From a virus, in IMG/VR virus record IMGVR_UViG_3300046691_000399, positions 1 through 46,961 of that record: a stretch of DNA of 46,961 nucleotides, one strand, 5' to 3'. The translations under genes and the position numbers were made by a program. Below, piece by piece: positions 17,008-40,658 of this stretch; within the stretch, counting starts at the first letter, position 1; every line of letters starts with the position of its first letter. The notes beneath the pieces are model-generated. The model was not told the origin of the DNA. It saw only the letters and a list, made by a program, of their open reading frames with translations, and did no database searches.

Positions 17008-17044
17008 CTGACGGCGGTAAAGCCGACGCCCGCCGCCGGATACC
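17008..17044 (+). promoter_or_regulatory. Late bipartite element, copy 1
   Basis: CTGACGGCGGTAA (17008-17020), 18 bp, then GATACC (17039-17044). The portal ATG at 17054 follows after 9 nt with no ribosome site. Predicted late promoter giving a near-leaderless mRNA. Confidence 0.7.
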
Positions 17045-17053
17045 CCACGTATC

Positions 17054-18940
17054 ATGGCGTGGATCACCGACAGCCTCACGAGCGCCATCGCGTTCGCATC
17101 GCGCCTCAATCCGTTCGGGCGTCTCGGCGGCGCCGGTTGCGACCTTCCCGGCGCCTTCACGCACCAGCTCGCCATCGCGGCCTACATGTCGTCCGGCATG
17201 TTGCGGAAGGTCATCGCGATCCCGGCTGCCGACCGCACCCAGAAATGGCGGGACTGGCAGACCGACAAGGACACCATCAAGCTCATCGAGACCGAGGAGA
17301 AGCGCCTCGGCCTGCAGGCCAAGACCAAGGAATGCGAGCGGCTGCGCGGTATCGGTGGCGGCGCGATGATCCTGATCACCGCCGGCGACCATAGCCAGCC
17401 GCTCAAGCCCGATATGATCGCCAAAGGCGGCCTGATCGCGATCAACGTCGTGTCGCGCTGGCAGATCCGGGGCGAGGATTTCGTCCGGGAGCTGACCGAC
17501 CCGATGTACGGCCAGCCCCGGATGTGGGTCATGGACGGCGATGGGAAACAGGCCAAGATCCATCCGAGCCGGGTCGTCTGCTATCGAGGTGATGCGCTTC
17601 CCGCAGGTGCAGCCGTCAGCGACGAAGAGCGGTTCTGGGGCGACAGCCGCCTTCTCCGCGTGTTCCGCGAGGTAGAGACCTCGGACAACGCCCAGGTCTG
17701 GTTCGCGGCGCTGATCCGGAAGGCGAAGCTGCTGCGCGTCGGCATCCCCGACCTGCTCGACCTGGTCGAAACCGCGGAAGGGCGGGCGCGGCTCGACCAG
17801 CGTATAGCGCTCATCGCGACCGGCGAATCCTCACTCAACGCCACGGTCTATCGCTCCGGCACCGGCCCCGACGACCCCGGCGAGAAGATCGACGATTACC
17901 AGATCACCTGGGCGGGCATCCCGGCGATGATGGACGCGTTCAACCAGCAGGTCGCGGCGGTATCGGATATCCCGTTCACCCGCCTGATGGGCCGTTCCCC
18001 CGCGGGCATGAACGCGACCGGCGAGCATGACACCGACAACTGGAACGATGCGGTGTCGGACGGCCAGGAGAACGAGACCCGGCCGTGCCTCGAGCAAATC
18101 GACCCGGTGCTGCTGCGCTCCGCCGGTGTCGCCAAGCCCGACGAGGTGACCTGGCGCTGGGCACCGCTCTGGACGCCGACCGAGCAGGAGGAGGCGGCGA
18201 CCTTCAAAACGACAATGGAAGCGGTCGATTTGCTGCAGGGCACCGGCGCTATCCCCGATCGCGCGTTCGCCGAAGGGCTGCAGAACCTCATGGAAGAGCG
18301 CGAGTACATGCCCGGCCTAGGCACCGCGCTCGCCAAGCTTTCCGAGCAAGAACGGTTCGGCCTGCCGGGCGGCGAAGACGACGGCGCCGATCCCAGCGAG
18401 CTTACCGAGACCACCAACGGCGGAAAGGAGGCGATCCAGACATCTGCCGGCGGCGGGGCAAATCCCCCAGAGCAACGCTCCGCCCGCCGTGCCGCGAATG
18501 ATGCGGCGCCGCGCACCCTCTATGTCCGCCGCGATGTGGTGAATGTCGCCGAGCTAAAGGCATGGGCGAGGGCGCAAGGCCTGCCCGCGCTGCAGGAGGG
18601 CTTGTATGTCACCCTCGCCTATTCCCGCACGCCGATCGACTGGATGAAGATCGACGGCGAGTGGAACCAGGACGCCAAGGGCGAAATCACCATCCAGCCC
18701 GGCGGCGTGCGCATTGTTGAACCGCTGGGCGATCGTACCGCGGTGCTCCTGTTCACGTCGTCCGCCCTGTCCTGGCGCCACGAGAGCATCATCCGTTCCG
18801 GGGCCTCGCATGATTATGACGACTATCAGCCGCACATCTCGCTCACCGGCGAACCCGTCGATCTGACCAACGTCGAGCCCTACCGCGGCAAGATCGTGCT
18901 CGGGCCCGAGATTTTCGAAGATCTCGACGAGACGCGCTGA
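17054..18940 (+). CDS. Portal protein (DUF1073) with C-terminal Acb1-like domain
   Basis: 628 residues. Residues ~1-430 are a DUF1073 portal: the ring through which DNA enters and leaves the head (IAIPAADRTQKWRDW, SDIPFTRLMGRSPAGMNATGEHD). After a Gly/Ser-rich linker (~440-490) the last ~130 residues form a two-histidine phosphoesterase-like domain of the anti-CBASS Acb1 type, which cleaves cyclic nucleotide signals. The second motif HIS (His594-Ser596) is intact. The first, expected HxT, reads YVT (Tyr518-Thr520; codon TAT where CAT would be His), so catalysis is doubtful. Its stop overlaps the MuF gene start by one base. Confidence 0.88.
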   Translation: MAWITDSLTSAIAFASRLNPFGRLGGAGCDLPGAFTHQLAIAAYMSSGMLRKVIAIPAADRTQKWRDWQTDKDTIKLIETEEKRLGLQAKTKECERLRGIGGGAMILITAGDHSQPLKPDMIAKGGLIAINVVSRWQIRGEDFVRELTDPMYGQPRMWVMDGDGKQAKIHPSRVVCYRGDALPAGAAVSDEERFWGDSRLLRVFREVETSDNAQVWFAALIRKAKLLRVGIPDLLDLVETAEGRARLDQRIALIATGESSLNATVYRSGTGPDDPGEKIDDYQITWAGIPAMMDAFNQQVAAVSDIPFTRLMGRSPAGMNATGEHDTDNWNDAVSDGQENETRPCLEQIDPVLLRSAGVAKPDEVTWRWAPLWTPTEQEEAATFKTTMEAVDLLQGTGAIPDRAFAEGLQNLMEEREYMPGLGTALAKLSEQERFGLPGGEDDGADPSELTETTNGGKEAIQTSAGGGANPPEQRSARRAANDAAPRTLYVRRDVVNVAELKAWARAQGLPALQEGLYVTLAYSRTPIDWMKIDGEWNQDAKGEITIQPGGVRIVEPLGDRTAVLLFTSSALSWRHESIIRSGASHDYDDYQPHISLTGEPVDLTNVEPYRGKIVLGPEIFEDLDETR

Positions 18941-19740
18941 TGCGCTTCCATCTCGCCGCAATAGTGCGCCGGACCCGCAATTCGCGGCAGTCGCAGATCC
19001 TGGTCCGCGACATCATCCCGCCGGCTGTGCTGGCCTCGAACCTCTATGTCGCCGGCTACAAGCCGGTCGTCTCAGCCTGGTCCGCCGCGGTCGATCGCCT
19101 CGTCGACGAATACGAGCGCACGCTGGCGACGATGGTCACGGATTCGCCCGCCGACCTACAGGCTGCGCTCGAGGCCGCTGGCTCCACTGCCGAACGCTTG
19201 TTCATCCTGCTCGATGCCGCCTTGCGCGACTGGACCATCAACGTGGAGCGTTGGCACCGCGAGAAATGGCGGGCCGCGATCCTTTCGGCCACTGGCGTCG
19301 ACCTCAAAACGCTCATCGGCCCTGGCGATGTCAAAACGACGCTCGAGCGGATCCTGGCCTGGAACGTCTCATTGGTCCGGGACGTCAATGCCGAGGCTCA
19401 ACGGCGGATGTCGTCGATCATCTTCGCCGGGCTCAACGAGCGGCGGCCGGCGGCGGAGGTCGCGCGGGATCTGCGCCAGGCCGTCGGGATGACGCGCGCG
19501 CGAGCCCAGCGCATCGCGTCGGACCAGCTCGCCAAGCTGACTTCGTCATTGGCGGACGAGCGACGCCGCCAGGCGGGCATCTCAACCTGGAAATGGCGCT
19601 GGTCGCACAAGCTCCATGGCCGCAAGGATCATATCGCCCGCGACGGCAAGATTTTCACCGACGAGACGGCACCGGAGGATTTGCCGGGGCAGTTGCCGTT
19701 TTGTGGGTGTCGGTCGCAGTCGTTGATAGATTTGGCGTAA
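18940..19740 (+). CDS. MuF-like minor head protein
   Basis: 266 residues. The C-terminal part is the phage head morphogenesis (Mu F) domain: LNERRPAAEVARDLRQAVGMTRARAQRIASDQLAKL, KWRWSHKLHGRKDHIARDGKIF and the closing GQLPFCGCRSQS. MuF proteins sit with the portal inside the capsid and help assembly or are injected. The final 86 bp overlap, on the other strand, the end of a membrane-protein gene. Confidence 0.9.
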   Translation: MRFHLAAIVRRTRNSRQSQILVRDIIPPAVLASNLYVAGYKPVVSAWSAAVDRLVDEYERTLATMVTDSPADLQAALEAAGSTAERLFILLDAALRDWTINVERWHREKWRAAILSATGVDLKTLIGPGDVKTTLERILAWNVSLVRDVNAEAQRRMSSIIFAGLNERRPAAEVARDLRQAVGMTRARAQRIASDQLAKLTSSLADERRRQAGISTWKWRWSHKLHGRKDHIARDGKIFTDETAPEDLPGQLPFCGCRSQSLIDLA

Positions 19741-20227
19741 CGACCTGAAGTCCGACGATTATCGACCCAAAAAGGAATGCGACAAAGGAGAGAATGCCGA
19801 ACGTCCATGGCCAAACACGCAGGTTGGTCAGGCGTTTGCGGTCTCTATCCCAATCGGGCACAAGGAGCATATCGGTGACCAATGCGGACCCGAGCGTTCC
19901 GATATATTCCCCGAGGATCTGAACTGCGCGGGTGCCGATCAAAACGTTGAACACCCCGACAATCAAGGCGAGGGATATCCCGCAGAGCCACGCAATGGCC
20001 GCGACGGCCATCACTTGAGCCGACACCTTGCTGCTCCCCATTACGGCAATAAGCGCGCCGGCGTTCACGGCAAGAAGTGAAGCCATTAGCCATTGGGAAG
20101 CGCTGGCCGTGATCTGAACTGATTGCCTGCTCGATTCCTCCACGAATTTCAGGAAGCGCTCAACTCCTTCACGTGTTCGATCATCAAGCTCAAGATATTC
20201 CCCGGGCTGCGGTGTTTCGTCGGGCAT
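19655..20227 (-). CDS. Antisense membrane protein inside head gene cluster
   Basis: 190 residues from ATG 20227 (GGGAG upstream). A charged helical N-terminus (DDRTREGVERFLKFVEESS) precedes three hydrophobic helices starting QWLMASLLAVNAG, VMAVAAIAWLCGI and WPWTFGILSFVAF, then a Thr/Pro-rich tail. It is encoded against the late genes and its 3' end overlaps the MuF gene. That suits a gene expressed in the lysogen, such as a superinfection-exclusion moron. No family recognised. Its start is 26 bp from late element copy 2, so the two form a divergent control region. Confidence 0.65.
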   Translation of the reverse strand: MPDETPQPGEYLELDDRTREGVERFLKFVEESSRQSVQITASASQWLMASLLAVNAGALIAVMGSSKVSAQVMAVAAIAWLCGISLALIVGVFNVLIGTRAVQILGEYIGTLGSALVTDMLLVPDWDRDRKRLTNLRVWPWTFGILSFVAFLFGSIIVGLQVVTPNLSTTATDTHKTATAPANPPVPSRR

Positions 20228-20252
20228 CTCTGCTACTCCCCCCATCTTGATC

Positions 20253-20289
20253 CTGACGGCGGTAAAGCACTGCCACAAGCCCCGATACA
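20253..20289 (+). promoter_or_regulatory. Late bipartite element, copy 2
   Basis: CTGACGGCGGTAA (20253-20265), 18 bp, then GATACA (20284-20289). ATG at 20300 follows after 10 nt (TCCACGGGCC), with no ribosome site. Confidence 0.7.
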
Positions 20290-20299
20290 TCCACGGGCC

Positions 20300-21442
20300 A
20301 TGGTCTATTTCGCCGACGCCCTGACCCTGGATGCACCGCGCCGCACCGCCGACGGGTATCTGGCTGTCCGCGCCAAAGCTGCGCGAACGGGCGTCTACCA
20401 GTACACCGGCCGCGAGGTGGATCCCGACAACGCCCATGGCCTGCGCGACCAGGCCAGCGTCAATGTCCTGCGCGACGCCGCCGCCGTTTTCGACGAGCGC
20501 TCTGTGCGCAGCTTCATCGGGAAGCCGATCACCAACGATCATCCCAGCGAGGCGGTGACCTCCGCGAACTGGAAGAAATATGCTGATGGCGTGAACATGG
20601 GCGCCATCCGCGACGGCGACCATCTCGCATTCGATCTGCTCCTCATGGATGCCACCGCGATCGCCGATGTCGACGCGGGCAAGCGCGAACTCAGCAACGG
20701 CTATTCCGCCGAGTTGCAGTTCGGCGACTTCGAGGCGGCTGACGGCACGAAATGCCCGGTCCGCCAAACCAACATCACCGGCAATCACATCGCGCTGGTC
20801 GATCGCGGTCGCGCGGGGCCGACCTGCCGCATCGCCGACGCCGCGACTTGTGACGCAGCCCCTCAATCCTTCCTCGATTCGATCACCACCCAGGAGACGC
20901 CCGTGCCCCAGATTATCACAATCGACGGGCTCTCCGTCGACATCGCCAATGCCGACGTGGCCAAGGCAACGATCACCACCATCCTCGCAGCGCGCGATGC
21001 CGCGAATACCAAGGTCTCCGGCTTGGAAACCCAGGTCGCGACCCTCAGCACCGACAAGGCGACGCTGGAGGCCAAGGTCACCACGCTCGAGCAGGCGGTG
21101 AAGGACGCAAAGCCTACCCCCGCCCAGCTGCGCGACGCGGGCAAGGCCCTGATGCAGACCGCCGCGAAGGCGAAGTCGCTCGGCATCACCGTCACCGACG
21201 AGATGGACGAGGCGATGATCATGGCCGCGACCGTCAACACCAAGATGGCCGACGCCGCCAAGGGCTGGAATGCCGACCAGATCGCCGCATCGTTCGCTGT
21301 CCTGACCAAGGACGCGAAGATCGAGGATGCGATCCTGCCGCTCGGCGACCCGAAGATCATCGGGGATTCCGCCAGCGTCGAAGCCGCCGCGCGCCAGCGC
21401 ATGATCGACCGCATGACCGGCAAGAAGCCCGTCGAAGCTTAA
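20300..21442 (+). CDS. DUF2213 prohead maturation/scaffold protein
   Basis: 380 residues. The N-terminal ~190 residues match DUF2213 (GVYQYTGREV, FIGKPITNDHPSEAV, RELSNGYSAEL, NHIALVDRGRAG), thought to be a capsid maturation protease. From ~200 onward comes a coiled-coil scaffold (LETQVATLSTDKATLEAKV). An in-frame GTG with its own ribosome site lies at 20903, exactly at the junction. It sits just before the capsid genes, as expected. The start at 20300 lacks a ribosome site and is explained by the late element upstream. Confidence 0.85.
   Translation: MVYFADALTLDAPRRTADGYLAVRAKAARTGVYQYTGREVDPDNAHGLRDQASVNVLRDAAAVFDERSVRSFIGKPITNDHPSEAVTSANWKKYADGVNMGAIRDGDHLAFDLLLMDATAIADVDAGKRELSNGYSAELQFGDFEAADGTKCPVRQTNITGNHIALVDRGRAGPTCRIADAATCDAAPQSFLDSITTQETPVPQIITIDGLSVDIANADVAKATITTILAARDAANTKVSGLETQVATLSTDKATLEAKVTTLEQAVKDAKPTPAQLRDAGKALMQTAAKAKSLGITVTDEMDEAMIMAATVNTKMADAAKGWNADQIAASFAVLTKDAKIEDAILPLGDPKIIGDSASVEAAARQRMIDRMTGKKPVEA
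20903..21442 (+). CDS. Nested scaffold protein (in-frame internal start)
   Basis: GTG 20903 is preceded by AGGAG six bases upstream and would give a 179-residue protein, beginning with the strand PQIITIDGLSVDIANADV and mostly coiled coil. This is the arrangement of lambda C/Nu3, where the scaffold is the separately translated C-terminal part of the protease gene. The internal site is seen directly; use in vivo is inference. Confidence 0.55.
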   Translation: MPQIITIDGLSVDIANADVAKATITTILAARDAANTKVSGLETQVATLSTDKATLEAKVTTLEQAVKDAKPTPAQLRDAGKALMQTAAKAKSLGITVTDEMDEAMIMAATVNTKMADAAKGWNADQIAASFAVLTKDAKIEDAILPLGDPKIIGDSASVEAAARQRMIDRMTGKKPVEA

Positions 21443-21454
21443 GGAGCGCATCCG

Positions 21455-22198
21455 ATGCCCGTCATCCAGAGCACTTTTCCGGACCGCATGTCTGCTTACG
21501 CCCTCGGGCGTCGGGTCAACATGGAGGAATGGAACAGCATCACTGGCGTTAACAGCGTCGCGATCGGTATCGCCCAGCCCGCGTTCCAGGGCGCGACCGA
21601 CCAGGGCATCATCGCCGGTGGTGCCTTCGCGGCAACCTCGGTTGGTGCAGCCGTCGCCGGCAACACCGGCGCGGCGACGATTACTGCCGCCCCGACTGTT
21701 GCCGCGGGCGCCAAGGCGGGCGTCTACAAGCTGACCGCCGTGTCGGCCGGCGCGACTGCCGTGTTCCTAATGACCGACCCCGATGCGATCGAGCTCGGCG
21801 AGGCCACCACGGGCAGCGCGGCGACGATCGGCGGCATCGGCCCGTTCACGATCACCGACGCGGGTACCGATCCCGCCATCGGCGACCAGTTCACCATCAC
21901 GGTGACCTACACCGCGAACGATGATTTCCTCGGCATCACCGAGTGGACGCCGGACGCGGACGCGGATGGCCTGTTTGCGATCGGGTCCAATGTCCCGGTC
22001 TGCGAATCGGGCGTCATCGCGGTGATGGCTGGCGGCACCTGCACGCGGCGCACGCCGGTCTACTGGATCGCCGCCACCAAGACCTACACCAGCACGCCCG
22101 GTACGAACTACCGGATCCGCAACGCAGAATTCGACGCATCGGCAAGCTCGGGCAGTCTTGTCCCGGTTCGCCTGCGCCGCATCCCGCCCGCCGCATAA
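21455..22198 (+). CDS. Capsid decoration / structural cement protein (Gp24-like)
   Basis: 247 residues, ribosome site GGAG. The N-terminus MPVIQSTFPDRMSAYALGRRVNMEEWNSITG is typical of 'structural cement protein Gp24' families placed between scaffold and major capsid genes. The middle is Ala/Thr/Gly-rich beta structure (INTERIOR VGAAVAGNTGAATITAA-type text), suggesting an inserted Ig-like or beta domain, and the end RIPPAA is short. It probably locks or decorates the capsid shell. Confidence 0.8.
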   Translation: MPVIQSTFPDRMSAYALGRRVNMEEWNSITGVNSVAIGIAQPAFQGATDQGIIAGGAFAATSVGAAVAGNTGAATITAAPTVAAGAKAGVYKLTAVSAGATAVFLMTDPDAIELGEATTGSAATIGGIGPFTITDAGTDPAIGDQFTITVTYTANDDFLGITEWTPDADADGLFAIGSNVPVCESGVIAVMAGGTCTRRTPVYWIAATKTYTSTPGTNYRIRNAEFDASASSGSLVPVRLRRIPPAA

Positions 22199-22210
22199 GG
22201 AGCGACGTTA

Positions 22211-23191
22211 ATGCGCATCGATATGACCGACGCCGCCCAGGTGTTCAGCTTCGCCCGCCAGCAGAGCCATGTGCTCAATGCGCGTGTCTACGAGATCGAA
22301 TATCCGGAGATGGATATCGGCTCGCTGATCACCGTCGATACCTCGCTTCCGGAATGGGCAAGCGGCATCGACACCCTGATCGGCGACAAGACCGGCAAGG
22401 CGGAATGGCAGTCCGGCGCCGCCAAGGACATCCCGCTGGCAGACACCAACCTGGCGCTCGTCGAGCTGAAGTTCGACATGTACGCGCTGGGATACCAGTG
22501 GAACATCGAGGAACTCGGCAAGGCGCAGTATCAGGGCTATCCGCTGACCGAGCGTCGCGCCGCCGCCGCGCGCCAAGGTTCGCAGGAATTCCTCTGGTTC
22601 AACTTCCTGACCGGCTCGACCGCGAAGGGTTGGACCGGGATCATCAACAGCTCGGTCATCACCCCGGTCGTCCTCTCGATCGGCACCGACACGACCACCG
22701 CATGGGTCAGCAATGCGGGTGTCGGCAACAAGACGCCTGCGCAGATCGTCTCGGACGTCAATGTGCTGCTGCTGGGCACGCCGGGCCCGTCGCGCATCGT
22801 CAAGGACACGCTGCTGCTGCCGGACGCAGCGCTCGATTACATCGTGGCGACGCCCTACGGCGTCACCTCGCCGAACATGTCGATCATGCAGTACATCATG
22901 GCGAACAACGAGTGGACGCGCCGCACCGGCAAGCCGCTCAAGATCCAGTCTCTCGATGCCCTCAAGACCGCCGCTACCGTCGGAATCGCAGGCGGCGGCC
23001 GCGCGGTGGCCTATCGCAACAGCGACGACAATCTGAAGCTTTGGGTGCCGATGCCGTTCCAGTTCCTGCCGGTCTATCAGGACGGCCCGCTGAACTTCGT
23101 CGTGCCCGGCATCGCCCGCACCGGCCCGGTCGACATCTTCCGGCCGAACGCCATCAGCTACGGCGACGCGGTGACGCCGGTCCCGGCATAA
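22211..23191 (+). CDS. Major capsid protein (DUF2184)
   Basis: 326 residues. The order of motifs fits the DUF2184 encapsulin/HK97-fold capsid family: VYEIEYPEMDIGSLITVDTS, EWASGIDTLI, ALGYQWNIEELGKAQ, LLLPDAALDYI and the C-terminal PFQFLPVYQDGPLNFVVPGIARTGP. There is no N-terminal delta domain, consistent with a separate scaffold. Strong upstream GGAG. A terminator follows directly, which would favour high molar output of the capsid gene cluster. Confidence 0.93.
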   Translation: MRIDMTDAAQVFSFARQQSHVLNARVYEIEYPEMDIGSLITVDTSLPEWASGIDTLIGDKTGKAEWQSGAAKDIPLADTNLALVELKFDMYALGYQWNIEELGKAQYQGYPLTERRAAAARQGSQEFLWFNFLTGSTAKGWTGIINSSVITPVVLSIGTDTTTAWVSNAGVGNKTPAQIVSDVNVLLLGTPGPSRIVKDTLLLPDAALDYIVATPYGVTSPNMSIMQYIMANNEWTRRTGKPLKIQSLDALKTAATVGIAGGGRAVAYRNSDDNLKLWVPMPFQFLPVYQDGPLNFVVPGIARTGPVDIFRPNAISYGDAVTPVPA

Positions 23192-23216
23192 ACGGTCCGA
23201 CGCCAAGGCATTCTGA

Positions 23217-23249
23217 GGCCCGCCTTTAACCGGGCGGGCCTTTCATTTT
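23217..23249 (+). terminator. Terminator after major capsid gene
   Basis: GGCCCGCC (23217-23224), 8-nt loop, GGCGGGCC (23233-23240), then TTTCATTTT. Likely partial, since connector and tail genes continue on the same strand. Confidence 0.85.
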
Positions 23250-23260
23250 GGAGCCCGAAC

Positions 23261-23686
23261 ATGCTCACCATCAAGAACCTGACGAACTCGCCGCACGAGC
23301 TGACCATTGTTTTGCCCGCGATGGGCTCGGTCTCCGGCCTAACGTTCGCACCCGCCTATCTCGCTGCGATCGAGGGGCTCGGATATTTCGAGTTGTCTGA
23401 GGCATCTGACCCTCTCGATCACGATCACGATGGCAAGAAGGGCGGCACCGCCGACGCAGAAGAGGCGGAGGGCGACGAGGTGAAAGCGTTCGTCTCGTTG
23501 ATGCTCGACGCATCGGCGGAAGACGTTGCAGCGCTCGTCGATGGCGATGACCGTCCGAGCGATGCGGTGCTGCGCACCTATATCGAGGCCCGGACCGGCA
23601 AGAAGGCACATCCCAACGCCAAGTCGGACACTCTGGCTGACAAGGCGAAGGACGCCGCGTCCGCGCCTGTCGAGGGAGCGGAGTAA
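23261..23686 (+). CDS. Hypothetical head protein with His/Asp-rich insert
   Basis: 141 residues. A short beta domain (MLTIKNLTNSPHELTIVLP) resembles a small strand-rich capsid-associated fold. It is followed by DPLDHDHDGKKGGT, a possible metal-binding or disordered linker, and an acidic helical domain with YIEARTGKKAH. It lies between capsid and head-completion genes. Position suggests an assembly or FI-type packaging accessory protein; not recognised. Confidence 0.65.
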   Translation: MLTIKNLTNSPHELTIVLPAMGSVSGLTFAPAYLAAIEGLGYFELSEASDPLDHDHDGKKGGTADAEEAEGDEVKAFVSLMLDASAEDVAALVDGDDRPSDAVLRTYIEARTGKKAHPNAKSDTLADKAKDAASAPVEGAE

Positions 23687-23949
23687 TGGCCGGCCCCTAT
23701 GACGGTCAGCGCGCCGAGGATGGTACCGCGTTCGGCGGTATCCTGAAGGCATGGCCGGTCGGATCGACGGTCCTGCCGAGCAACGTCAAGGCCGTGCTGT
23801 TCAATGCCGACGGCACTGCGGACCTCACCAATTCGGACGATTCCACCGAGGCCGCTGTGCCGGTACTCAAAATGGTACCCCTTCCCTTCGTGCCGAAAAA
23901 GGTCACTGCGATGGCGACGGCGACCAAGTGCTACATCGTCCTCCCCTGA
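23686..23949 (+). CDS. Small head-associated protein
   Basis: 87 residues, overlapping the previous stop (TAATG). The chain reads as beta-rich (GSTVLPSNVKAVLFNADGTADLTNSDD). It ends VLKMVPLPFVPKKVTAMATATKCYIVLP, a pattern of small decoration or spike-like head proteins. Unrecognised; structural role inferred from location. Confidence 0.65.
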   Translation: MAGPYDGQRAEDGTAFGGILKAWPVGSTVLPSNVKAVLFNADGTADLTNSDDSTEAAVPVLKMVPLPFVPKKVTAMATATKCYIVLP

Positions 23950-23950
23950 C

Positions 23951-24358
23951 ATGGCCTATGTCGTCCCCACCGCCGCAACCCTGAAACAGCGCTTCCCCGC
24001 GTTCGCCGCAGTTGACGACGTGACCGTGGAGTATTGGCTCGCCGATGCGCGCCTGATCGTCGTCGACACCTGGATCGAGAACGACCGCGCCCCGGCCGAG
24101 ATGGCCTTGGCCGCGCACAACATGGCGGCGAACGGGCTCGGCGTCGGCGGTGGCGCCGTGGGGGATCTGGCGCAGATGGGCGTGACCGACTTCAAGTCCG
24201 CGTCCATGTCGGTCAGCTTCGACGCCGCGCGCGTCGCCGCTGCAAATGCGGGCGGCTATCGGTCCACCCGGTACGGCGTCGCCTACCTCACCTACCTGCG
24301 CCGCAATCGCGGCGGGCCTTCTCTCGTCGGGTGCGCCGGCATCACGGTCTGCGGCTGA
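23951..24358 (+). CDS. DUF4054 head-tail connector protein
   Basis: 135 residues. MAYVVPTAATLKQRFPAFAAVDDVTVEYWLADARLIVVDTW and the GLGVGGGA linker followed by SVSFDA and STRYGVAYLTYLRRNRGG are typical of DUF4054. The family is a head-completion adaptor that sits on the portal ring. It is followed without a gap by the next connector gene. Confidence 0.85.
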   Translation: MAYVVPTAATLKQRFPAFAAVDDVTVEYWLADARLIVVDTWIENDRAPAEMALAAHNMAANGLGVGGGAVGDLAQMGVTDFKSASMSVSFDAARVAAANAGGYRSTRYGVAYLTYLRRNRGGPSLVGCAGITVCG

Positions 24359-25602: not shown

Positions 25603-25619
25603 CGATTCGGGAGGGGCGA

Positions 25620-25955: not shown

Positions 25956-25964
25956 GTCGCGGAA

Positions 25965-26252
25965 GTGAGCGACACTGCCAGCATCGAGCTCGAGCTATTC
26001 CGAGAACTCATTCACGAGCTGGTGCGTGCCGATATCATCAGCGATGACATGATCGATAGCGTGCGCGAACGCTTCGACGCCCAGGCTCGGATCCACGAAG
26101 GCACTGAGACCGGGGAGAAGTTCGAGCAGCTCGCCCACATGGCGACAGTGTTGCCATTCGAAGCAGCGGCCCCCTCACCGGCTGAATTCCACGCCGAGCA
26201 GCGGCGCGCACGCATGCGGGTCGTCTCTGACGGCGGTAAAGCGCAAGACTGA
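25965..26252 (+). CDS. Small helical hypothetical protein
   Basis: 95 residues, GTG start. Sequence is helical and acidic (IELELFRELIHELVRADIISDDMIDSVRERF). The C-terminal codons contain late element copy 3, translated as SDGGKAQD. No family recognised. It resembles small proteins seen between connector and tail-tube genes. Confidence 0.6.
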   Translation: MSDTASIELELFRELIHELVRADIISDDMIDSVRERFDAQARIHEGTETGEKFEQLAHMATVLPFEAAAPSPAEFHAEQRRARMRVVSDGGKAQD

Positions 26253-26263
26253 CCACGGCTAGC
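26227..26263 (+). promoter_or_regulatory. Late bipartite element, copy 3
   Basis: CTGACGGCGGTAA (26227-26239), 18 bp, then GCTAGC (26258-26263). The next start at 26293 is 29 nt away and, unlike the other copies, has a GGAG ribosome site. Confidence 0.65.
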
Positions 26264-26292
26264 GTCCGCTCGGAATTCCAGCGGAGCGCGCA

Positions 26293-26739
26293 ATGTCCGA
26301 GCCCAACACGATCGAATTTGCCCGCATCGGCGTCCGAGACATCGGGTCGAGCGATCCTTTCACCTATTTCTGCGGCATCCAGACCACCGGCTTCAACCGC
26401 GCGGTCCAGACCAATGACCGCGCCGTGAAGGATTGCCAGTATCCGGGCCGTCCGGCGGAGCGTCGCATCCGCGTCACCGGCCGCTCGCGAACCCTTACCG
26501 GCTCGGGCCTCTACAACGAGGACCAGCGCGAGCTCGTCGACTCGATCGAGGGCGTCCGCAAGGAATACCAGGTGGTGTTCGTAGACCTCGACGACGGCAC
26601 CGAGGCCGGAACGGACGTCGAAATCCGCCAGGGCCCCGGCATCGCCACTTCGATCAACATGGGCACGTCCGAGAATGATCTCGGCACGCTCGAGATCACC
26701 ATCGAATCCGACGGCGCCTGGACCAGCGAAGCCGCGTAA
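26293..26739 (+). CDS. Major tail tube protein
   Basis: 148 residues. The compact beta-rich chain with a TTGFNRAVQTNDRAVKDC loop, RRIRVTGRSRTLTGSG, DGTEAGTDV and the closing GTLEITIESDGAWTSEAA fits siphophage tail-tube proteins of the Gp17 type. Position before the chaperone and tape-measure genes supports this. Confidence 0.85.
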   Translation: MSEPNTIEFARIGVRDIGSSDPFTYFCGIQTTGFNRAVQTNDRAVKDCQYPGRPAERRIRVTGRSRTLTGSGLYNEDQRELVDSIEGVRKEYQVVFVDLDDGTEAGTDVEIRQGPGIATSINMGTSENDLGTLEITIESDGAWTSEAA

Positions 26740-26750
26740 GGAGAACTGAC

Positions 26751-27260
26751 ATGGTTGCCGGTGTTCGCGCCAATATCTCGCTCACGATGGATGCCACTCT
26801 CATCGGCACCAACGACCTCGGCTCACCGAAGCAGCGCGTTCTCATCGACGAGGCGCTGGCCTTCGCTGCCGGCACCGCCGCGGTCAACCAGGCCGACCTC
26901 ATGTTCGCCGACACGCGTACGATTGCCGCGTCCGGCTCGGAGGACCTGGACCTTGCCGGCGTCCTCACCGACGCATTCGGCCAGCTCATCGCGGCCGCCG
27001 AGATCGTGCTCATTTACGTCAAGGCGGCTGCGGCGAACACCAATTCGGTGATCATCGGCGCCGCGACGGCACCGTTCGCCGGCCCGCTGGGCGCGCTCGG
27101 CACCTATACCGTCAAGCCCGGCGAGTTCTATTTCGCGGCATCCGAGAGCGGCTGGGCTGTCGGTGCCGGCGCGACGGATGATCTCAAGATCGCGAACAGC
27201 GGCGGGACCACCGGCGTCACCTACGACATCGTGGTGCTGGGCCGCACCGTAGCAGCGTGA
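26751..27260 (+). CDS. Tail structural protein
   Basis: 169 residues, TAAGGAG ribosome site. The chain (GVRANISLTMDATLIGTNDLGSPKQRVLIDEAL, then a C-terminal beta domain with YTVKPGEFYFAA and YDIVVLGR) looks like a virion surface protein. To my recollection it is found directly after the tail tube gene in related phages. It may decorate the tube; exact role unknown. Confidence 0.65.
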   Translation: MVAGVRANISLTMDATLIGTNDLGSPKQRVLIDEALAFAAGTAAVNQADLMFADTRTIAASGSEDLDLAGVLTDAFGQLIAAAEIVLIYVKAAAANTNSVIIGAATAPFAGPLGALGTYTVKPGEFYFAASESGWAVGAGATDDLKIANSGGTTGVTYDIVVLGRTVAA

Positions 27261-27703
27261 TGACCGTCCAGACGGCCCTGGAGCTGAAGTACGCCGATGG
27301 CGACTATCTCTTCGACCTGCCCTTGCCTCAGATGCGCGAGCTGCAGGAAAAGCGCGGTTGCGGCATCTTCAAGATCTATGGGCGCCTCCTCAAGGGACGC
27401 TACCTTCTCGGCGAGACGCAGGTCGCGATGCCCGAAGAGGGTGAGGCCTTCGCCGAGGACATCTTCGAGGTAATCCGGCTCGGCCTGATCGGCGGCGGCA
27501 AGGGAGTGGTCGACGGCAAGGATGTGGAGGTTTCCGCGATCCGCGCTCGGACGCTGGTCGAGAATTACTGCCATCCAGCACCCCTGCGCGAAAGCTGGTC
27601 CATCGCAGCCGCCGTCGTCGCGGCCCGCATCGAGGGCTACACCCCGCCGGCAGATAAAAAAAAAGCGCGCCGCGCAAAAGCAAAGCCGGTGACGGACGCG
27701 TAG
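27260..27703 (+). CDS. Tail assembly chaperone, G part (GTA family-like)
   Basis: 147 residues from ATG 27260 (or GTG 27257). LELKYADGDYLFDLPLPQMRELQEKRGCGIFKIYGRL matches the gene-transfer-agent family chaperone (gp10-like TAC). It binds the tape measure during tail assembly. The end is Lys/Arg/Ala-rich and contains nine consecutive A, a slippery site that allows a -1 shift into the T part. Confidence 0.88.
   Translation: MTVQTALELKYADGDYLFDLPLPQMRELQEKRGCGIFKIYGRLLKGRYLLGETQVAMPEEGEAFAEDIFEVIRLGLIGGGKGVVDGKDVEVSAIRARTLVENYCHPAPLRESWSIAAAVVAARIEGYTPPADKKKARRAKAKPVTDA
27656..27664 (+). other. Programmed -1 frameshift site (A9)
   Basis: Zero-frame codons are GAT AAA AAA AAA GCG. The -1 frame is closed by TAA at 27655-27657 and opens exactly inside the A-run, continuing to 27870. 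This is the lambda G/GT arrangement. A long slippery A-run supports shifting without an evident downstream structure. Confidence 0.75.
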
Positions 27704-27870
27704 ATTTCGAAGAGGTCGCCATCAACTGCACCCTGATGGGTCTGGATTGGCGGCACCTGACCTGGTGGGAATATCAGTCCCGGCTCTGGCACTGGAACCG
27801 CCACCACACCCCCGCCGACGCGATCCCGGAACCTGATTACGATCGCATCCGCAAGATGATGGTGCACTGA
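27658..27870 (+). CDS. Tail assembly chaperone, T part (by -1 frameshift)
   Basis: The -1 frame encodes about 70 residues with AINCTLMGLDWRHLTWWEYQ, then WHWNRHHTP and DYDRIRKMM, a typical T-domain of GTA/siphophage chaperones. No start codon with a ribosome site introduces it, so it should be made as a G-T fusion of about 203 residues. Its stop overlaps the tape-measure ATG. Confidence 0.8.
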   Translation, partial: KKSAPRKSKAGDGRVDFEEVAINCTLMGLDWRHLTWWEYQSRLWHWNRHHTPADAIPEPDYDRIRKMMVH

Positions 27871-30482
27871 TGGCAGTCGAAGCAGATAGCGTCGTCGTCT
27901 CGATCATCGGAGACACTTCCAAGCTCGATGAGCCGGTAGGGCAGTCCGCCACCAACTTCGATCGTAGCATGTCGACGATCGAGAAGTCCGCGTCCCGCGC
28001 GGAGGCGGCGGTCAAGCAATCCGCGGCATCGCGCGCGACAGCCGAGGAGGACGCGGCGAAGCGCACCCTCGCTGCGCAGCGAGCCGCCTTCGTGAAGCTC
28101 TCTGAGGCGAGGCAGGCCGTGGTCGCCGGCGTCAATCGCGGCGAAGATCCGGTTCAAGCCCTCACCCTGCAGCTGCCCAAGATCGCCCAGGCCCTGTCGC
28201 TCATCGACGGCCCCGCCGACAAGGCCGGCGAGTCGCTGAGCGACGCAGGCGGCGATGCGAAGGAAATGAGCGGCGCCCTCCTCGATGGCGTGAAGGATTC
28301 CGGCCTCCTGACGGGTAAATTGGCCGGCCTGGCGAGCGTTCTGTCCGGCCCCTTCGGTGCGGCCATCGGCGCCGCTATCGGGTTCTTCGCCTCTTACATC
28401 GCGTCGACCATTTCCGCGACCGACGAGACCGACGAGCTCGTCGATAAGTTGCGCAAGGAGGCGGCCCAATCCGAGCTGACCAGGCAAGCCAAAGAACGGT
28501 TCGGCAAGACCACCGAGGGCGTCACGAAGGCAATACGGGATCAGCAGGCCGCCCTCGACGACCTACACGAATCCGAGAAAACCGACGCCCAACGCCTCAA
28601 TGAGGCGACGAAGCGCTCGTTGGAGCGGATCCGTAACATCCGGAATGAGACCGCTGCGTCACTTGACCAGGCAATCGCGGAACTTGAGGTTCAACGGGTG
28701 CGCGCGCAGGCACCGGGCCAGCGTGGGGAGAACGCCAGTCTCGGGCTCGAAGCCGCGTCCGGACGCGTTGAGGCGTTGCGCAATAAGCTCGCCGCAAACC
28801 GGAAAAGCATCGCCGACGCAGAACGGGCTTACAACGAGTCGCGGGCGCATATTGGTATCGAGCAGGCAAACCGGGCGGCAGAAGCCGCCGCCACCGCTGA
28901 AGGTCGCATCCAGAGCCAGTACGAGGCGCAGAAAAAGGCGCTGCAGGACCGCTACGAGACCGAGATCAAGGTCACGAAGGAGCAGGGCAAACAGGTTGCT
29001 CTATCGAATCAGCTCGGCGCCAGCCTGAAGAAGCTCGCTCAGGACCGTGACGCTGCTTTGAAACGGGCGCAGGAGGACAAGCGCGCGCCCAAGGCGACTG
29101 ACGCCGACACGACGCCCTTCCTTCGCCCGGTGGATGGTGGGCGCGTCACTGGAAGATTTGGCGAGAAGCGGGGTGGCCGCCTCCATCAGGGCACCGACAT
29201 CGCCGTCCCTGTGGGCGCCAGCGTGTCAGCGGCGGCGGGCGGCACGATCATCGAATCGGGTACCCTGCCCGGCTACGGCAACGTCATCATCATCGATCAC
29301 GGCCGCGGCACGACCACTCGCTACGCCCACCTGAGCAAACTGCTCGCGGGCAAGGGCGACGTCGTCGACGCCGGCCAGGTCATTGGTTTGTCCGGTGGTG
29401 CCAAGGGCGCGCCGGGCTCCGGCAATAGCCAGGGTCCCCACCTCCATTACGAGGTTCGCAGGGGTGGCCGCCCGGTTGATCCGAGCGCCGGCGCCTTCCC
29501 CATCGATCCCGCCACTGCGCGTCGCTCCAACGAGAAGGTCCGCGACGACTTCAACAAGCTGATGGACGATCTGCAAGGCGACGCGGACCGCGCGCGCGAA
29601 AGGATCACCCAGAGTTTCACCGCGCTGGAAGACAGCCTCGACCCGGCCGCAAAATCGGCTCGGGAATTGGCCGATCAGATCCAGACGATCGAGAACGCCA
29701 GGCTCATCGGCCTGATCAGCGACAGCCGCGCGCTCGAACTGCGCCTGGCCGCGGTTCGCAAGCAGATCGAGCCCGTGGTCAAGAAGCTCGAGGCAATTGG
29801 GCGCGGCACCGCGAAACGCGTCGAGGCTGGCCAGAAGGAAGCGTCCGATCAAGCGCGCGAACATGCCGAAAACCAGATCTACCAGCTGGCCGATCTTTAC
29901 GAATCACTCTTCACCGGCGGCACGAAGAACCTGTGGGAGGAGTTCAAGCGCCAGGGACTTCGCGCGCTGGCGATCCTCGCGGCGCAGAAGACGTTCGAGC
30001 TTATCACGGGCAAGAAGGCGCCCGGTGGAGCTGGCGGCGATGGGATTGGAGACGCGATCGGCTCCATAATTGGAGCAATCGGCAGCGTGCTCCGTGACGG
30101 CAGCGGCAGCAGTGGGACAAAGGCCAAACTCGGCAGCTACAAAGCTGGCCTGGGTCGCGCGTCAGGTGGTTACGTCGGACCGCATTCGATTCACCCTGTC
30201 AATGAGTCCTCGGGTGGCGTCGAGCTGCTTCGGATGGGCCCGCAAGGTGGCGAGATCATCCCGCTCGGCCAGACCAAGGCCGCAACCCCAGCCGCAGGCG
30301 GCGTGACGCTCCAGCAGACAATCAACATTGACAGCCGAGGCTCGGTCAACCCGGCCGGATATACCGAGCACATCAAGGCTGCGGTTCGGCAGGAGACCAT
30401 CCAGATTGTCGCGAAAGCGAGCCGCGCGACATTGAACGCGGTGCCGGGACGCCTCGCCAGCTTCCAGACCGACGGCACCTGA
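27870..30482 (+). CDS. Tape measure protein with M23 peptidase domain
   Basis: 870 residues. Long helical and Ala/Lys/Glu-rich stretches with a hydrophobic segment (LSGPFGAAIGAAIGFFASYI, about residue 165) are typical tape-measure features; the length sets the tail length. Residues ~420-545 form an M23 zinc metallopeptidase: RLHQGTDIAVPVG (His and Asp ligands), YGNVIIIDHG and PHLHYEVRRGGRPVDP (HLH). This domain should cut peptidoglycan cross-links during DNA entry. The C-terminus is Gly-rich, with GYVGPHSIHPVNE and SSGGVELLRMGPQGGEIIPL. Its stop codon lies within late element copy 4. Confidence 0.93.
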   Translation: MAVEADSVVVSIIGDTSKLDEPVGQSATNFDRSMSTIEKSASRAEAAVKQSAASRATAEEDAAKRTLAAQRAAFVKLSEARQAVVAGVNRGEDPVQALTLQLPKIAQALSLIDGPADKAGESLSDAGGDAKEMSGALLDGVKDSGLLTGKLAGLASVLSGPFGAAIGAAIGFFASYIASTISATDETDELVDKLRKEAAQSELTRQAKERFGKTTEGVTKAIRDQQAALDDLHESEKTDAQRLNEATKRSLERIRNIRNETAASLDQAIAELEVQRVRAQAPGQRGENASLGLEAASGRVEALRNKLAANRKSIADAERAYNESRAHIGIEQANRAAEAAATAEGRIQSQYEAQKKALQDRYETEIKVTKEQGKQVALSNQLGASLKKLAQDRDAALKRAQEDKRAPKATDADTTPFLRPVDGGRVTGRFGEKRGGRLHQGTDIAVPVGASVSAAAGGTIIESGTLPGYGNVIIIDHGRGTTTRYAHLSKLLAGKGDVVDAGQVIGLSGGAKGAPGSGNSQGPHLHYEVRRGGRPVDPSAGAFPIDPATARRSNEKVRDDFNKLMDDLQGDADRARERITQSFTALEDSLDPAAKSARELADQIQTIENARLIGLISDSRALELRLAAVRKQIEPVVKKLEAIGRGTAKRVEAGQKEASDQAREHAENQIYQLADLYESLFTGGTKNLWEEFKRQGLRALAILAAQKTFELITGKKAPGGAGGDGIGDAIGSIIGAIGSVLRDGSGSSGTKAKLGSYKAGLGRASGGYVGPHSIHPVNESSGGVELLRMGPQGGEIIPLGQTKAATPAAGGVTLQQTINIDSRGSVNPAGYTEHIKAAVRQETIQIVAKASRATLNAVPGRLASFQTDGT

Positions 30483-30515
30483 CGGCGGTAATTGTGCCTC
30501 GCCTGCCACGATAGC
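30479..30515 (+). promoter_or_regulatory. Late bipartite element, copy 4
   Basis: CTGACGGCGGTAA (30479-30491), 18 bp, then GATAGC (30510-30515). The TGA is the tape-measure stop. GTG at 30524 follows after 8 nt. Confidence 0.7.
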
Positions 30516-30523
30516 TCCAGGAC

Positions 30524-31081
30524 GTGGCGGACCATCGCGAGAGCTTCATCGTCTATATCGCCTGTGACCCGGCCGCCTTGTTCTGGACGGGTGTAGGGCT
30601 TCTGCCCCTCATCGCGGATGCGGTGCTGCCGGAGCCGATGACCGCATTGGGCGCTGGAACGCTGGTCAACATCCCTGATTTCCAGCAGCTTATGGATGGC
30701 ACCGCGGAGCGCCTCCAATTTATCGTCTCCGGGGTCAACGATGAGACCCTGAGGCTCGCGTTCGACGACGCACCATCGGTTCGCAATGCATTGGCATGGC
30801 TCGGCCGGATCACCTTCGACAAGGACTGGCAGCAAACTGGCCCGATCGAATGGGAAGCGATGTTCCAGGCTCGCGAGCTGACCATCAGCCGCACCAGCGA
30901 TGGGAATGCGACCAGTCAGGCAATCTCGTTGACGGTGGTCGGCGGAGATTCCGCGCGGTCGCGCTCGATCAATTCCTATTTCACGGACGCGGACCAGCGT
31001 CGTCGCTCCCCCACCGACGCGATTTTCAGCCACGTCGCCGGCATCACCGCCGGCACCTCGCGCCGTTGGGGGCCTCGGTGA
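30524..31081 (+). CDS. Distal tail protein (hypothetical)
   Basis: 185 residues, GTG start placed just after late element copy 4. After an N-terminal segment that contains YIACDPAALFWTGVG, the chain reads as beta-rich. The region FQARELTISRTSDG, then VVGGDSARSRSINSYFTDADQRRRSPTD, resembles proteins that form the distal tail ring in GTA-like phages (DUF2163-like role). The assignment is by position and general look. Overlaps the next gene (GTGA). Confidence 0.65.
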   Translation: MADHRESFIVYIACDPAALFWTGVGLLPLIADAVLPEPMTALGAGTLVNIPDFQQLMDGTAERLQFIVSGVNDETLRLAFDDAPSVRNALAWLGRITFDKDWQQTGPIEWEAMFQARELTISRTSDGNATSQAISLTVVGGDSARSRSINSYFTDADQRRRSPTDAIFSHVAGITAGTSRRWGPR

Positions 31082-31449
31082 ACGTCGCGGACTTCCTATT
31101 CGAGGCCGCGAACGATCGCCGGCCATGGAACTGCTCGACACTCCCCGCCGACTGGTGCCTCACGCTTGGGCATCCCGACTTCGCGGCCGGGTGGCGCGAA
31201 ACAATCGAAGAGACCGAATGTCAATTTGCGGCCGCCGCCGGCCTGGTGGCCCTTTGGAATGAGGGCATCGGAGACGCGCTCCCTGCCGCGCCCGACAATC
31301 TGCGCGCGGGTGACATCGCAGTTATCAGCAGGCTGGGCCTCGAAGCCGGAGCGATTTTCGACGGCGAGCGCTGGGCGCTGCGCACTGCGCGCGGTCTGAT
31401 CTTCGCCATGCTGCCCGGGGATTCAATCCTCAAGGCGTGGAGGCCGTAA
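31078..31449 (+). CDS. DUF6950-like tail protein (NlpC/P60-like)
   Basis: 123 residues, GTG start. VADFLFEAANDRRPWNCSTLPADWCLTLGHPD, a helical middle, and LRAGDIAVISRLGLEAGAIFDGERWALRTARGLIFA agree with the DUF6950 family, small papain-like/NlpC-like proteins placed before the tail hub in siphophages. The catalytic arrangement is not certain. It would help cell-wall passage. Confidence 0.75.
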   Translation: MNVADFLFEAANDRRPWNCSTLPADWCLTLGHPDFAAGWRETIEETECQFAAAAGLVALWNEGIGDALPAAPDNLRAGDIAVISRLGLEAGAIFDGERWALRTARGLIFAMLPGDSILKAWRP

Positions 31450-33416
31450 TGGGTAAGACGCTGGGCACGATCATAACCCTTGCCGGAGCTGTCGTAGTAA
31501 ACGTCGTGCCCGGCCTCGGTCAGCTCGCGAGCGCAGCCATCCTGCTCGGCTCCGCGGCGATCGGCGCGGTGGTGTCCGGCATGGGTGCTTCGCCCAAGCC
31601 TGAATCTGCGTCCACCGCCCAGAAACAGCCGAGGCCGCCTCGCGTCTCCGCTTACGGCAAGGGCCGGCTCTACATGAACTACGCCCTTTTCGAGACCGGT
31701 ACGAACGGTCATGCCGTTGATGTCGGCGCCATACATGACGGCAAGATGGATGGAGTGATCCAGCTCTATCTCAACGACGACAAGGTCACGCTGTCGGGCG
31801 ACTATGTCCAGGCCGGTGCCGATGGCCGGTACGGCAACGACAACATCCGTCTGCTCTACACCAATGGCTCGAGCCCGGGCACCTGGTTCTCTGCGGTCGG
31901 CGCGATCGTGCCCGGCTGGACGAGCAATCACCGAGGCGATGACGTGGTGATGCTGGCGATGATCGCCAAGAATGTGAAGCAGGAGAACTATCTCAAATTC
32001 TACCCGAACGGCGCGCCTATTCCCTCCATTGCAGCGCGGTGGCAGCTCTGCCCCGATTTCAACGAGGACCAACCCTTTGACGAGACCGGCTGGACCTGGA
32101 CCGAAAACCCAATCCGCCAGCTCGGCCATTACAAGCTGGCCCACGAGGCACCAACGCCAACGCTTCCGATTGACGATCCGGACTATGCCGCGGAGATGCT
32201 TGCTCTGCGCGAGGCCTATTATCTGGCGAAGATCGCCCCGACGCTGAGCTACTGGCGGGCCGCCCAGGACATTTGCGATGAGGCCGTGCCACTGAAGGCG
32301 GGTGGGACCGAACCCCGGTATCGCAGCTGGGTCGCGCACAAGCACACCGATCCGCACAAAGCAGTCAATGCGGCGATTATGGCGACCTGCGACGGTTGGA
32401 TTTCGCCCAGGGCGGATGGCGCGCTCGTGGTTTATGCAGGCAAGCATTACGAGCCGACGGTTACGATCGGCCCAGCAGATATCGTCAATTTCGAATGGAA
32501 CGGTGTCGGGGTCGACGACGACAAGGCGGTCAACGAGCTGGTCTGTTCCTATGTGTCGGCCGACCACGACTATAACAGCGTTGAAACCGACGCATGGACC
32601 GACGAGGCCGACATCCTCGAGCGCAGCCAGGTCCTAAGCGACTCTCTCGAATTGCCGGTTCCAAGCCACGGCCAAATCCGACGGCTCGCGAAGCGCCGAA
32701 TGGCGAAGACCAACGCGCTCCACCGTGGAACCGTCACTACCAATATCAATGGGCGGGCGGTGCGCGGGGAACGCTTCATCTATCTGCTCATGGTGGTCGG
32801 CGGCCGAACCTATTTCGATGGGGTCGCTGAAATTACCGGGCTCACGCGGAACATTGAGACGGGAGGCGTCACCTTCTCGTGGATCGCCGCCGACCCGAAC
32901 ATCGATGCTTGGAACGAGGATACCGAGGAGGGCAATCCCGCCGCACTCGGTGATCGCGTCGCGTCGGAACCGCTGGACGCGCCCACCATCGACAGCGTCA
33001 CACCTACCTACGGCCAGAACACCGCTTATGGCGTACCCGGCGTCAAGCTGACGATAGAAGTCACGGGCCCAGACCGCGACGACCTGACCTGGTTCGTCCG
33101 GACCAGAGAGGCAGATGTGGGCGTCGCTTGGCTGGAGCAACGCTATCCGGACGTCGATCCCGGCGCCTCGGTGACCCTGCAGACGGATTTCTTGCCCCTG
33201 GCCGTCCTCGATGTCGAAGTCGCTTACAGCACCGGCGATGGCCGTCTGAGCCCGTGGGCGAGCCCCGACGACCCCGTCTCGACTGACGACGCGGTGCCGG
33301 CGGACCTGACCGGGCTGAGCGTGAGTGCGAATACCGCCGGCACGCTGATCTCCGCGGATTGGGACAACAGCCTGAACGCGACGCGCTACCTGTTCGAACT
33401 GATCGTGGAGCCGTGA
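31449..33416 (+). CDS. Tail tip/hub protein (J-like)
   Basis: 655 residues, start sharing a base with the preceding stop (TAATG). An N-terminal Gly/Ala-rich hydrophobic region (IITLAGAVVVNVVPGLGQLASAAIL) is followed by a beta-rich tail-hub core (RPPRVSAYGKGRLYMNYALFE; YRSWVAHKHTDPHKAVNAAIMATCDGWIS; FDGVAEITGLTRNI). A C-terminal fibronectin-like domain includes LTGLSVSANTAGTLISADWD. The hub forms the tail tip and supports receptor binding. Confidence 0.85.
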   Translation: MGKTLGTIITLAGAVVVNVVPGLGQLASAAILLGSAAIGAVVSGMGASPKPESASTAQKQPRPPRVSAYGKGRLYMNYALFETGTNGHAVDVGAIHDGKMDGVIQLYLNDDKVTLSGDYVQAGADGRYGNDNIRLLYTNGSSPGTWFSAVGAIVPGWTSNHRGDDVVMLAMIAKNVKQENYLKFYPNGAPIPSIAARWQLCPDFNEDQPFDETGWTWTENPIRQLGHYKLAHEAPTPTLPIDDPDYAAEMLALREAYYLAKIAPTLSYWRAAQDICDEAVPLKAGGTEPRYRSWVAHKHTDPHKAVNAAIMATCDGWISPRADGALVVYAGKHYEPTVTIGPADIVNFEWNGVGVDDDKAVNELVCSYVSADHDYNSVETDAWTDEADILERSQVLSDSLELPVPSHGQIRRLAKRRMAKTNALHRGTVTTNINGRAVRGERFIYLLMVVGGRTYFDGVAEITGLTRNIETGGVTFSWIAADPNIDAWNEDTEEGNPAALGDRVASEPLDAPTIDSVTPTYGQNTAYGVPGVKLTIEVTGPDRDDLTWFVRTREADVGVAWLEQRYPDVDPGASVTLQTDFLPLAVLDVEVAYSTGDGRLSPWASPDDPVSTDDAVPADLTGLSVSANTAGTLISADWDNSLNATRYLFELIVEP

Positions 33417-33417
33417 C

Positions 33418-33663
33418 ATGGGCACGACGGTAGATCCCCCCAACGACAACCCGGGCGAGGGCGAACCCGGCGATCCCGGCTACACGCCGCCGACGGGTCC
33501 GAACACCAAGATCGCGCTTGTCGTCACCAGTTCGAACCTCACGCTAACTGAGGACCAGATCGTCGCTGCCGGTGGACCATGGGCTGCGTTCACGATCAAG
33601 GTGACCCCGGTCAACGACAACGGCACCGGGGCACCGGGGGAATTCGACTATCCGCCGCCCTGA
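33418..33663 (+). CDS. Small tail-associated protein
   Basis: 81 residues: a Pro/Gly/Asp-rich, probably disordered first third followed by a short beta domain (KIALVVTSSNLTLTEDQIVAAGG). It starts two bases after the hub gene stop. Its own stop codon is part of late element copy 5. Unrecognised; probably a virion component attached to the tail tip. Confidence 0.55.
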   Translation: MGTTVDPPNDNPGEGEPGDPGYTPPTGPNTKIALVVTSSNLTLTEDQIVAAGGPWAAFTIKVTPVNDNGTGAPGEFDYPPP

Positions 33664-33696
33664 CGGCGGTAATGATGGTGCGGCCTGATGCGTAGC
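33660..33696 (+). promoter_or_regulatory. Late bipartite element, copy 5
   Basis: CTGACGGCGGTAA (33660-33672), 18 bp, then CGTAGC (33691-33696). ATG at 33707 follows after 10 nt (GTCCGCGGCT), without a ribosome site. Copies 3 and 5 also share TAGCGTCCGC. Confidence 0.68.
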
Positions 33697-33706
33697 GTCC
33701 GCGGCT

Positions 33707-40657: not shown

Positions 40658-40658
40658 T

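Follow-up and report, generated by a model that had tools for sequence, protein, structure and literature searches.

The window analysed here is the whole of IMG/VR virus record IMGVR_UViG_3300046691_000399, a stretch of 46,961 bases in which a 13-base box, CTGACGGCGGTAA, occurs five times, exactly and only on the + strand (Table 1), each time followed at a fixed distance by a TA dinucleotide and then by the start codon of a gene. These five elements are almost certainly late promoters, and the late mRNAs made from them are very probably leaderless for the most part, as judged from their sequence features. We propose, with a probability of roughly 0.7 for the explanation as a whole, that a small phage helix-turn-helix (HTH) protein, for which the best candidate is the product of 14718–15044, encoded before the terminase and virion genes, would bind CTGACGGCGGTAA at −45 to −33, substitute there for the −35 element, and guide the host RNA polymerase, carrying the housekeeping sigma factor, onto a minimal −10 element (TANNNN), transcription beginning 6 nucleotides (nt) past it. 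For the portal, maturation, connector and several tail genes, the 5' end would fall on the start codon or about 2 nt from it, giving a leaderless mRNA; the tail tube, the tape measure and one distal gene would receive a leader of 16–25 nt with a Shine-Dalgarno sequence. We infer promoter activity, the start sites, the use of the host sigma factor and the role of the HTH protein as reader of the box. The promoter family appears to be an undescribed variant of the activator-dependent phage late promoters.

The element and its spread among phages

An earlier note on this DNA had reported the five 13-mers and their positions, and both proved correct; no copy with one mismatch is found elsewhere in the window. 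Under a first-order Markov model, 0.0006 copies of the box are expected on the + strand, and in 100 simulations with such a model no 13-mer exceeded three copies. The TA dinucleotide stands at offset 33 from the start of the box in all five copies, an agreement that has a chance of ~4e-9 at one fixed offset and of ~2e-7 across 40 offsets. A weight matrix of 15 positions, trained on the sites of other phages, gave 28.7 bits for the five window sites and 8.6 for the next-best window site, which lies at noise level, the top score in 30 simulated windows being 15.1 bits. In two copies (30479 and 33660) the TGA of the box is also the upstream stop codon, as had been noticed before.

Dozens of IMG/VR contigs share the element, as do prophages of Sphingomonadales, and within any one phage it keeps to a single strand. 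In exact scans of IMG/VR with N20 spacing, many contigs show at least 2–4 sites per stretch among the matches listed, and a scan with N15–19 spacing, which served as an informal control, returned single-copy stretches only among the matches listed. We selected 22 motif-bearing IMG/VR contigs through the motif which, with the window, make up 23 phages, the contigs compared being mostly metagenomic. Counted over whole records at up to two mismatches, each of the 22 has 3–8 sites on a single strand, against 0–2 per contig for a reversed-pattern control in the same contigs. The spacing and the placement before the same virion genes are kept in 22 further phages. An all-against-all comparison of the window, the 22 contigs and seven motif-free contigs that share only early genes showed that the motif accompanies one virion module, composed of the PF06381 portal, a Mu F-like protein, DUF2213, the major capsid protein, the tail tube and a GTA-gp10-type tail chaperone. 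The motif scan was negative in Rhizobium phage RHEph04, the portal of which is ~36% identical, and the pattern GTAA-N20-YA-N9-13-ATG had no match in the first stretches of five motif-free records. A near-identity DNA search in phage records gave no match, and the 13-mer was not found in a literature search.

A scan of a genome collection, in which only multi-site loci were accepted as real, gave chance-like matches across many phyla, plus sphingomonads. Among the 11 exact-site genomes checked, the sites of multi-site sphingomonads are mostly grouped in one prophage-like stretch, on one strand, and not scattered through the host genome; such a scatter was what the earlier note had named as speaking against its reading. 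In Sphingomonas soli (NBRC 100801), all eight sites lie inside 25 kb. Of 299 genomes sampled from the family to which this species belongs, 6 have exact sites. From the relatives of the window, we infer Sphingomonadales as the order of its host. Apparent tandem or overlapping boxes were also seen before the portal gene, with a second GGCGGTAA inside the spacer (L457, ~5955–5985; also L474 and L476).

The predicted −10 element and leader classes

Over 139 sites from the 23 phages, strong conservation outside the box is limited to a T (68%) and an A (87%) at offsets 33–34, with TA exactly 20 bp past the box in 95 sites, T at −7 in only 35%, and a spacer between box and TA that is not conserved, as the first reading of the window had already suggested. 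That reading had also described a second box, a GATACC-like hexamer, and had considered it as a −10 element: the TA at a fixed offset holds in all five window copies and the −10 role is supported by the pattern of conservation, whereas the hexamer is not, since TA alone is conserved, and the putative −10 element is better described as a TANNNN that begins at this TA. In the sphingomonad Zymomonas mobilis, the start sites of which have been mapped, the sigmaA −10 element is likewise TANNNN without T at −7, the housekeeping −35 element is TTGNNN with a usual spacer of 17 bp, the commonest discriminator is 6 bp long and 119 transcripts are leaderless (PMC7566282). The downstream element shows the features of this sphingomonad −10 element (TANNNN, dominant T−12 and A−11, no T−7). 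A TTGNNN ~17 bp before it is not found at the −35 position; the box positions within −35 to −30 read TAA and the rest are unconserved.

If TA is read as −12/−11, the box spans −45 to −33 and transcription would start at offset 45. With the −10 element as TANNNN, four of the window copies have their predicted start site 0–2 nt away from the start codon, and the fifth has it 21 nt away. Leader classes were counted over 98 sites that precede conserved late genes, taking as start codon the first in-frame one past the −10 element, a choice backed by the conserved N-termini of the portal proteins (MAWITDSL and similar). Relative to the predicted start site, the start codon is at 0 in 35 sites, +1 in 22, +2 in five, +3 in four, +4 in two, −1 in two, and −3 and −5 in one each, the last two being probably mis-chosen. 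It is therefore at 0 or +1 in 57 of the 98 sites and within −5 to +4 in 72, for which the position of the −10 element predicts a 5' end no more than 5 nt from the start codon; a further 26 sites, mainly of the tail tube, have it at +16 to +25, and none has it at +5 to +15. A Shine-Dalgarno-like GGAG, GAGG or AGGA is absent from all 72 sites of the first class and present in all 26 of the second. The class is fixed by the gene: portal, maturation, connector and several tail genes are predicted to be leaderless, and the tube, the tape measure and one distal gene to be leadered. The proposal of late promoters with mostly leaderless products, already made in the earlier note, is strongly supported by the spacing, the strand, the placement in 22 further phages and this split by gene.

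If this is true, a whole class of late genes of double-stranded DNA phages would be translated leaderless by rule, with the leader type set for each gene, and why and how leaderless mRNAs serve high-demand translation would become directly testable in one regulon. Late operons of Sphingomonadales phages, and their true start codons, could then also be annotated by a simple pattern.

As for the genes that follow the boxes in the window (Table 1), the portal, maturation and tail tube assignments of the first reading are borne out by Pfam, the Phage_tail_2 match of the tube being just below the cut-off; its distal-tail and tail-fibre assignments (genes at 30524 and 33707) found no Pfam match.

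Table 1. Predicted promoter elements of the window, the genes that follow them and the candidate recogniser
Feature	Coordinates	Strand	Remarks
Candidate recogniser, 108-residue HTH-like protein	14718..15044	+	no Pfam/PHROG family; just 5' of small terminase gene
Activator box 1 (CTGACGGCGGTAA), portal promoter	17008..17020	+	predicted −45 to −33
−10 element TACCCC (TANNNN)	17041..17046	+	predicted start site 17053, portal ATG 17054
Portal protein (PF06381) with C-terminal Acb1 domain	17054..18940	+	predicted leaderless
Activator box 2, head-maturation promoter	20253..20265	+	
−10 element TACATC	20286..20291	+	predicted start site 20298, ATG 20300
DUF2213 head-maturation protein	20300..21442	+	predicted leaderless; Pfam
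Activator box 3, tail-tube promoter	26227..26239	+	
−10 element TAGCGT	26260..26265	+	predicted start site 26272, ATG 26293; 21-nt leader with GGAG
Tail tube protein (Phage_tail_2)	26293..26739	+	leadered, Shine-Dalgarno class
Activator box 4	30479..30491	+	overlaps stop codon of tape-measure-position gene
−10 element TAGCTC	30512..30517	+	predicted start site 30524 = GTG start codon
Tail-region gene, no Pfam match	30524..31081	+	predicted exactly leaderless
Activator box 5	33660..33672	+	overlaps stop codon of preceding gene
−10 element TAGCGT	33693..33698	+	predicted start site 33705, ATG 33707
Late gene, no Pfam match	33707..34381	+	predicted leaderless

The portal gene of the window encodes a C-terminal Acb1 (anti-CBASS) domain (residues 487–626, Pfam PF23474, E 1.7e-29), and this portal-Acb1 fusion sits behind a predicted late promoter; the portals of several relatives, of ~480 residues, are without this domain.

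The candidate recogniser and competing explanations

The box varies between phages and does so in concert within a phage. One phage has TGACGGAGGTAA at six of six sites, and others have boxes that end in CTGAGGGTTATAA, CTGAGGGGTATAA or ACGACGGTAA at portal and maturation sites alike, L444 being the CTGACGGAGGTAA phage. Between the portal and maturation sites, which are non-homologous, the box distance within a phage is 1.81 of 8 positions, against 2.67 after shuffling (0 of 5000 shuffles as low). Such a concerted change needs a shared trans-acting factor, and the box is quite probably recognised by one that the phage itself encodes.

The family of the HTH-like protein at 14718–15044 is the only non-virion family present in all 23 motif-bearing phages, and it is absent from the seven motif-free relatives that share early genes. 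When loci were selected by the protein alone, the motif was found in seven of seven; among 80 loci selected by the portal, the HTH gene was found in all 56 with at least 3 kb of upstream DNA, ending at a median of 2.4 kb before the portal gene. Most members have 70–110 residues, with the core P-x-x-F-x(3)-F-x(3)-GW-x-x-IE-x-x-Y ... RW-x(5)-GG-x-x-L-x(3)-R. Searches against Pfam and PHROGs assigned no family, save one weak DUF7047 match of a single member. The AlphaFold2 model has short helices of the HTH kind (pLDDT ~92 across residues 21–60); its best structural matches are mostly HTH DNA-binding domains, all weak, and the fold search gave no confident relative. No relative was found in isolate phages, save in one unannotated faecal contig without the box. 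On the basis of co-occurrence, gene position, predicted fold and the concerted change of the box, we rather favour the 14718-family protein as the reader of the box. A phage activator, one of the two possibilities named in the earlier note, is in this respect supported by the genomic evidence. We see even odds for the wider proposal, which would comprise a minimal HTH activator of ~70–110 residues from an undescribed family, virion operons that are mostly leaderless across a large group of sphingomonad phages, a Shine-Dalgarno sequence kept for fixed genes such as the tail tube, and co-evolution of recogniser and box towards orthogonal promoter-activator pairs. If true, it would point to an activator family that is small and as yet unannotated, for which a 13-bp site is defined and variants of specificity occur in nature.

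Just upstream of the recogniser, a 147-residue open reading frame (14278–14721) has a recogniser-like start (YRPMPADFPDTFIRVGQT) followed by an HNH-like region, and is possibly a truncated duplicate of the recogniser. A first regulator candidate, P0001 (10634–11458), was rejected, as the phages of its relatives are without such a regulon, with only three scattered two-mismatch motif matches in their eight records. This 274-residue protein belongs to no family, has a C-terminus that is HTH-like by eye, and is 61–73% identical in eight phages with other virion modules.

The 14718-family protein, which is HTH-like and encoded directly upstream of the terminase genes, could instead be a terminase small subunit or a packaging factor that co-occurs with the motif only as a member of the virion module. 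We consider this unlikely, because ten phages, the window and nine others (G004, G009 and G016, with the short form, included), have a separate small subunit (Terminase_2) distinct from the 14718-family gene.

Several observations weigh against the proposed explanation, or weaken the evidence for it. With 70–110 residues and one HTH, the protein is small for an asymmetric 13-bp site, which it could occupy only with the help of a partner, as a dimer or through contact with sigma. The choice of the 22 phages through the motif guarantees each of them at least one site with this geometry. Nearly all portal-selected loci with a placeable portal start retain the architecture box-N20-TA-N10/11-ATG, the box diverging by clade, yet the sites were scored partly by consensus, so that this result is supportive and not blind. 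An A at box position 7 is found in six of six members of the clade with the recogniser helix IHRASW and in 2 of 49 elsewhere, an association confounded by phage ancestry. Recogniser distance and box distance show no overall correlation (Mantel rho −0.02), since the consensus box is common to recognisers that differ widely. Finally, 11 of the 23 phages also have a second upstream gene, for a protein with a predicted ParB/Noc-like DNA-binding fold that could take part.

This ParB/Noc-like protein (178–195 residues, e.g., L399:16516–17049, encoded immediately before the recogniser in its short form) has no match in Pfam or PHROG. Its fold, and the position of its gene next to the HTH gene, would suit it as the specific binder where it is present, with the HTH protein as an accessory, which seems to us rather unlikely: the other 12 phages are without this partner and have the same box. 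As the window is among them, with its box unchanged, the ParB/Noc-like protein cannot be the general reader.

The two boxes at fixed spacing and the missing normal −35 element would also suit an alternative sigma factor of phage or host, the second possibility of the earlier note, with the 13-mer as its −35 element and the TA within its −10 element; the HTH protein could then be a minimal part resembling sigma region 4. This is improbable. The 20 bp between box and TA exceed the usual 17-bp spacer of the Z. mobilis housekeeping sigma factor, and the −10 element is the same as the host housekeeping TANNNN. No sigma-family match was obtained among the window proteins scanned, some open reading frames being left unscanned, and the sole universal non-virion gene, at 70–110 residues, is too small for sigma regions 2 and 4. 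A 13-mer at −45 to −33, in place of the −35 element, occupies the position of an activator, so that an alternative sigma factor is not needed.

Recognition of the 13-mer by a host-encoded transcription factor would account for the identical box in phages with widely differing HTH proteins. It is quite improbable, as the multi-site clusters are limited to prophage-like stretches in the host genomes checked and exact sites are so rare in the Sphingomonas soli family; phage-wide switches of the box would also be unexpected, though different host species could explain some of them. That the repeats are other spaced DNA sites, e.g., for packaging or replication, is scarcely credible, given their placement 0–4 or 16–25 nt before the start codons of the same genes with a Shine-Dalgarno sequence that switches accordingly, a combination specific to transcription starts.

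Comparison with known systems

The proposed HTH activator and its promoters are comparable in logic to several described systems, and we claim no family membership. In T4 middle promoters, a MotA box at −30, 12 ± 1 bp from the −10 element, replaces the −35 element and the host sigma −10 element is kept (PMC2988021). At the level of sequence, the present promoters resemble this appropriation of sigma by MotA/AsiA, with an activator box in place of the −35 element and a host −10 element; however, the box lies at −45 to −33, 20 bp from the −10 element, so that neither the centre nor the spacing is that of MotA, and the class consists of late virion genes with predicted leaderless starts. Neither Pfam nor PHROG gave a match to the HTH protein, and no search aimed at MotA or AsiA was made. 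In Mu late promoters, C binds upstream of the −35 element, and the −10 and −35 elements are non-consensus (PMC4461284). As far as the part of that source consulted goes, several late operons are likewise under one small phage activator next to the −35 region, and the fixed 20-bp geometry and the leaderless rule are not described for Mu C.

Dedicated activators of virion clusters that use the host polymerase and have a sigma-like HTH are known in Alphaproteobacteria, namely GafA in Rhodobacter and GafY/GafZ in Caulobacter (PMC9638019, PMC11150451). GafY/GafZ involve a far-upstream GafY site, IHF, anti-termination and one promoter for a long cluster (PMC11150451), whereas here there are 3–8 short promoters per phage, with the box adjoining the −35 position. 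No Pfam/NCBIfam match to a GafA-type regulator was obtained among the proteins scanned, the GafA sequences themselves not being compared. In the core promoter, there is a likeness to the sigmaA promoters of Z. mobilis, with TANNNN without T−7, a 6-bp discriminator and many leaderless transcripts (PMC7566282), from which the present promoters differ in that the 13-mer replaces the TTGNNN −35 element at 17 bp.

Towards the end of the record, on the − strand, the window encodes an RHS-repeat protein with a C-terminal Ntox44 toxin domain (40659–44954), followed by a gene of low G+C content for a 131-residue protein (40295–40690, also −) that may be the immunity protein of this toxin; together, the two genes look like toxin cargo.

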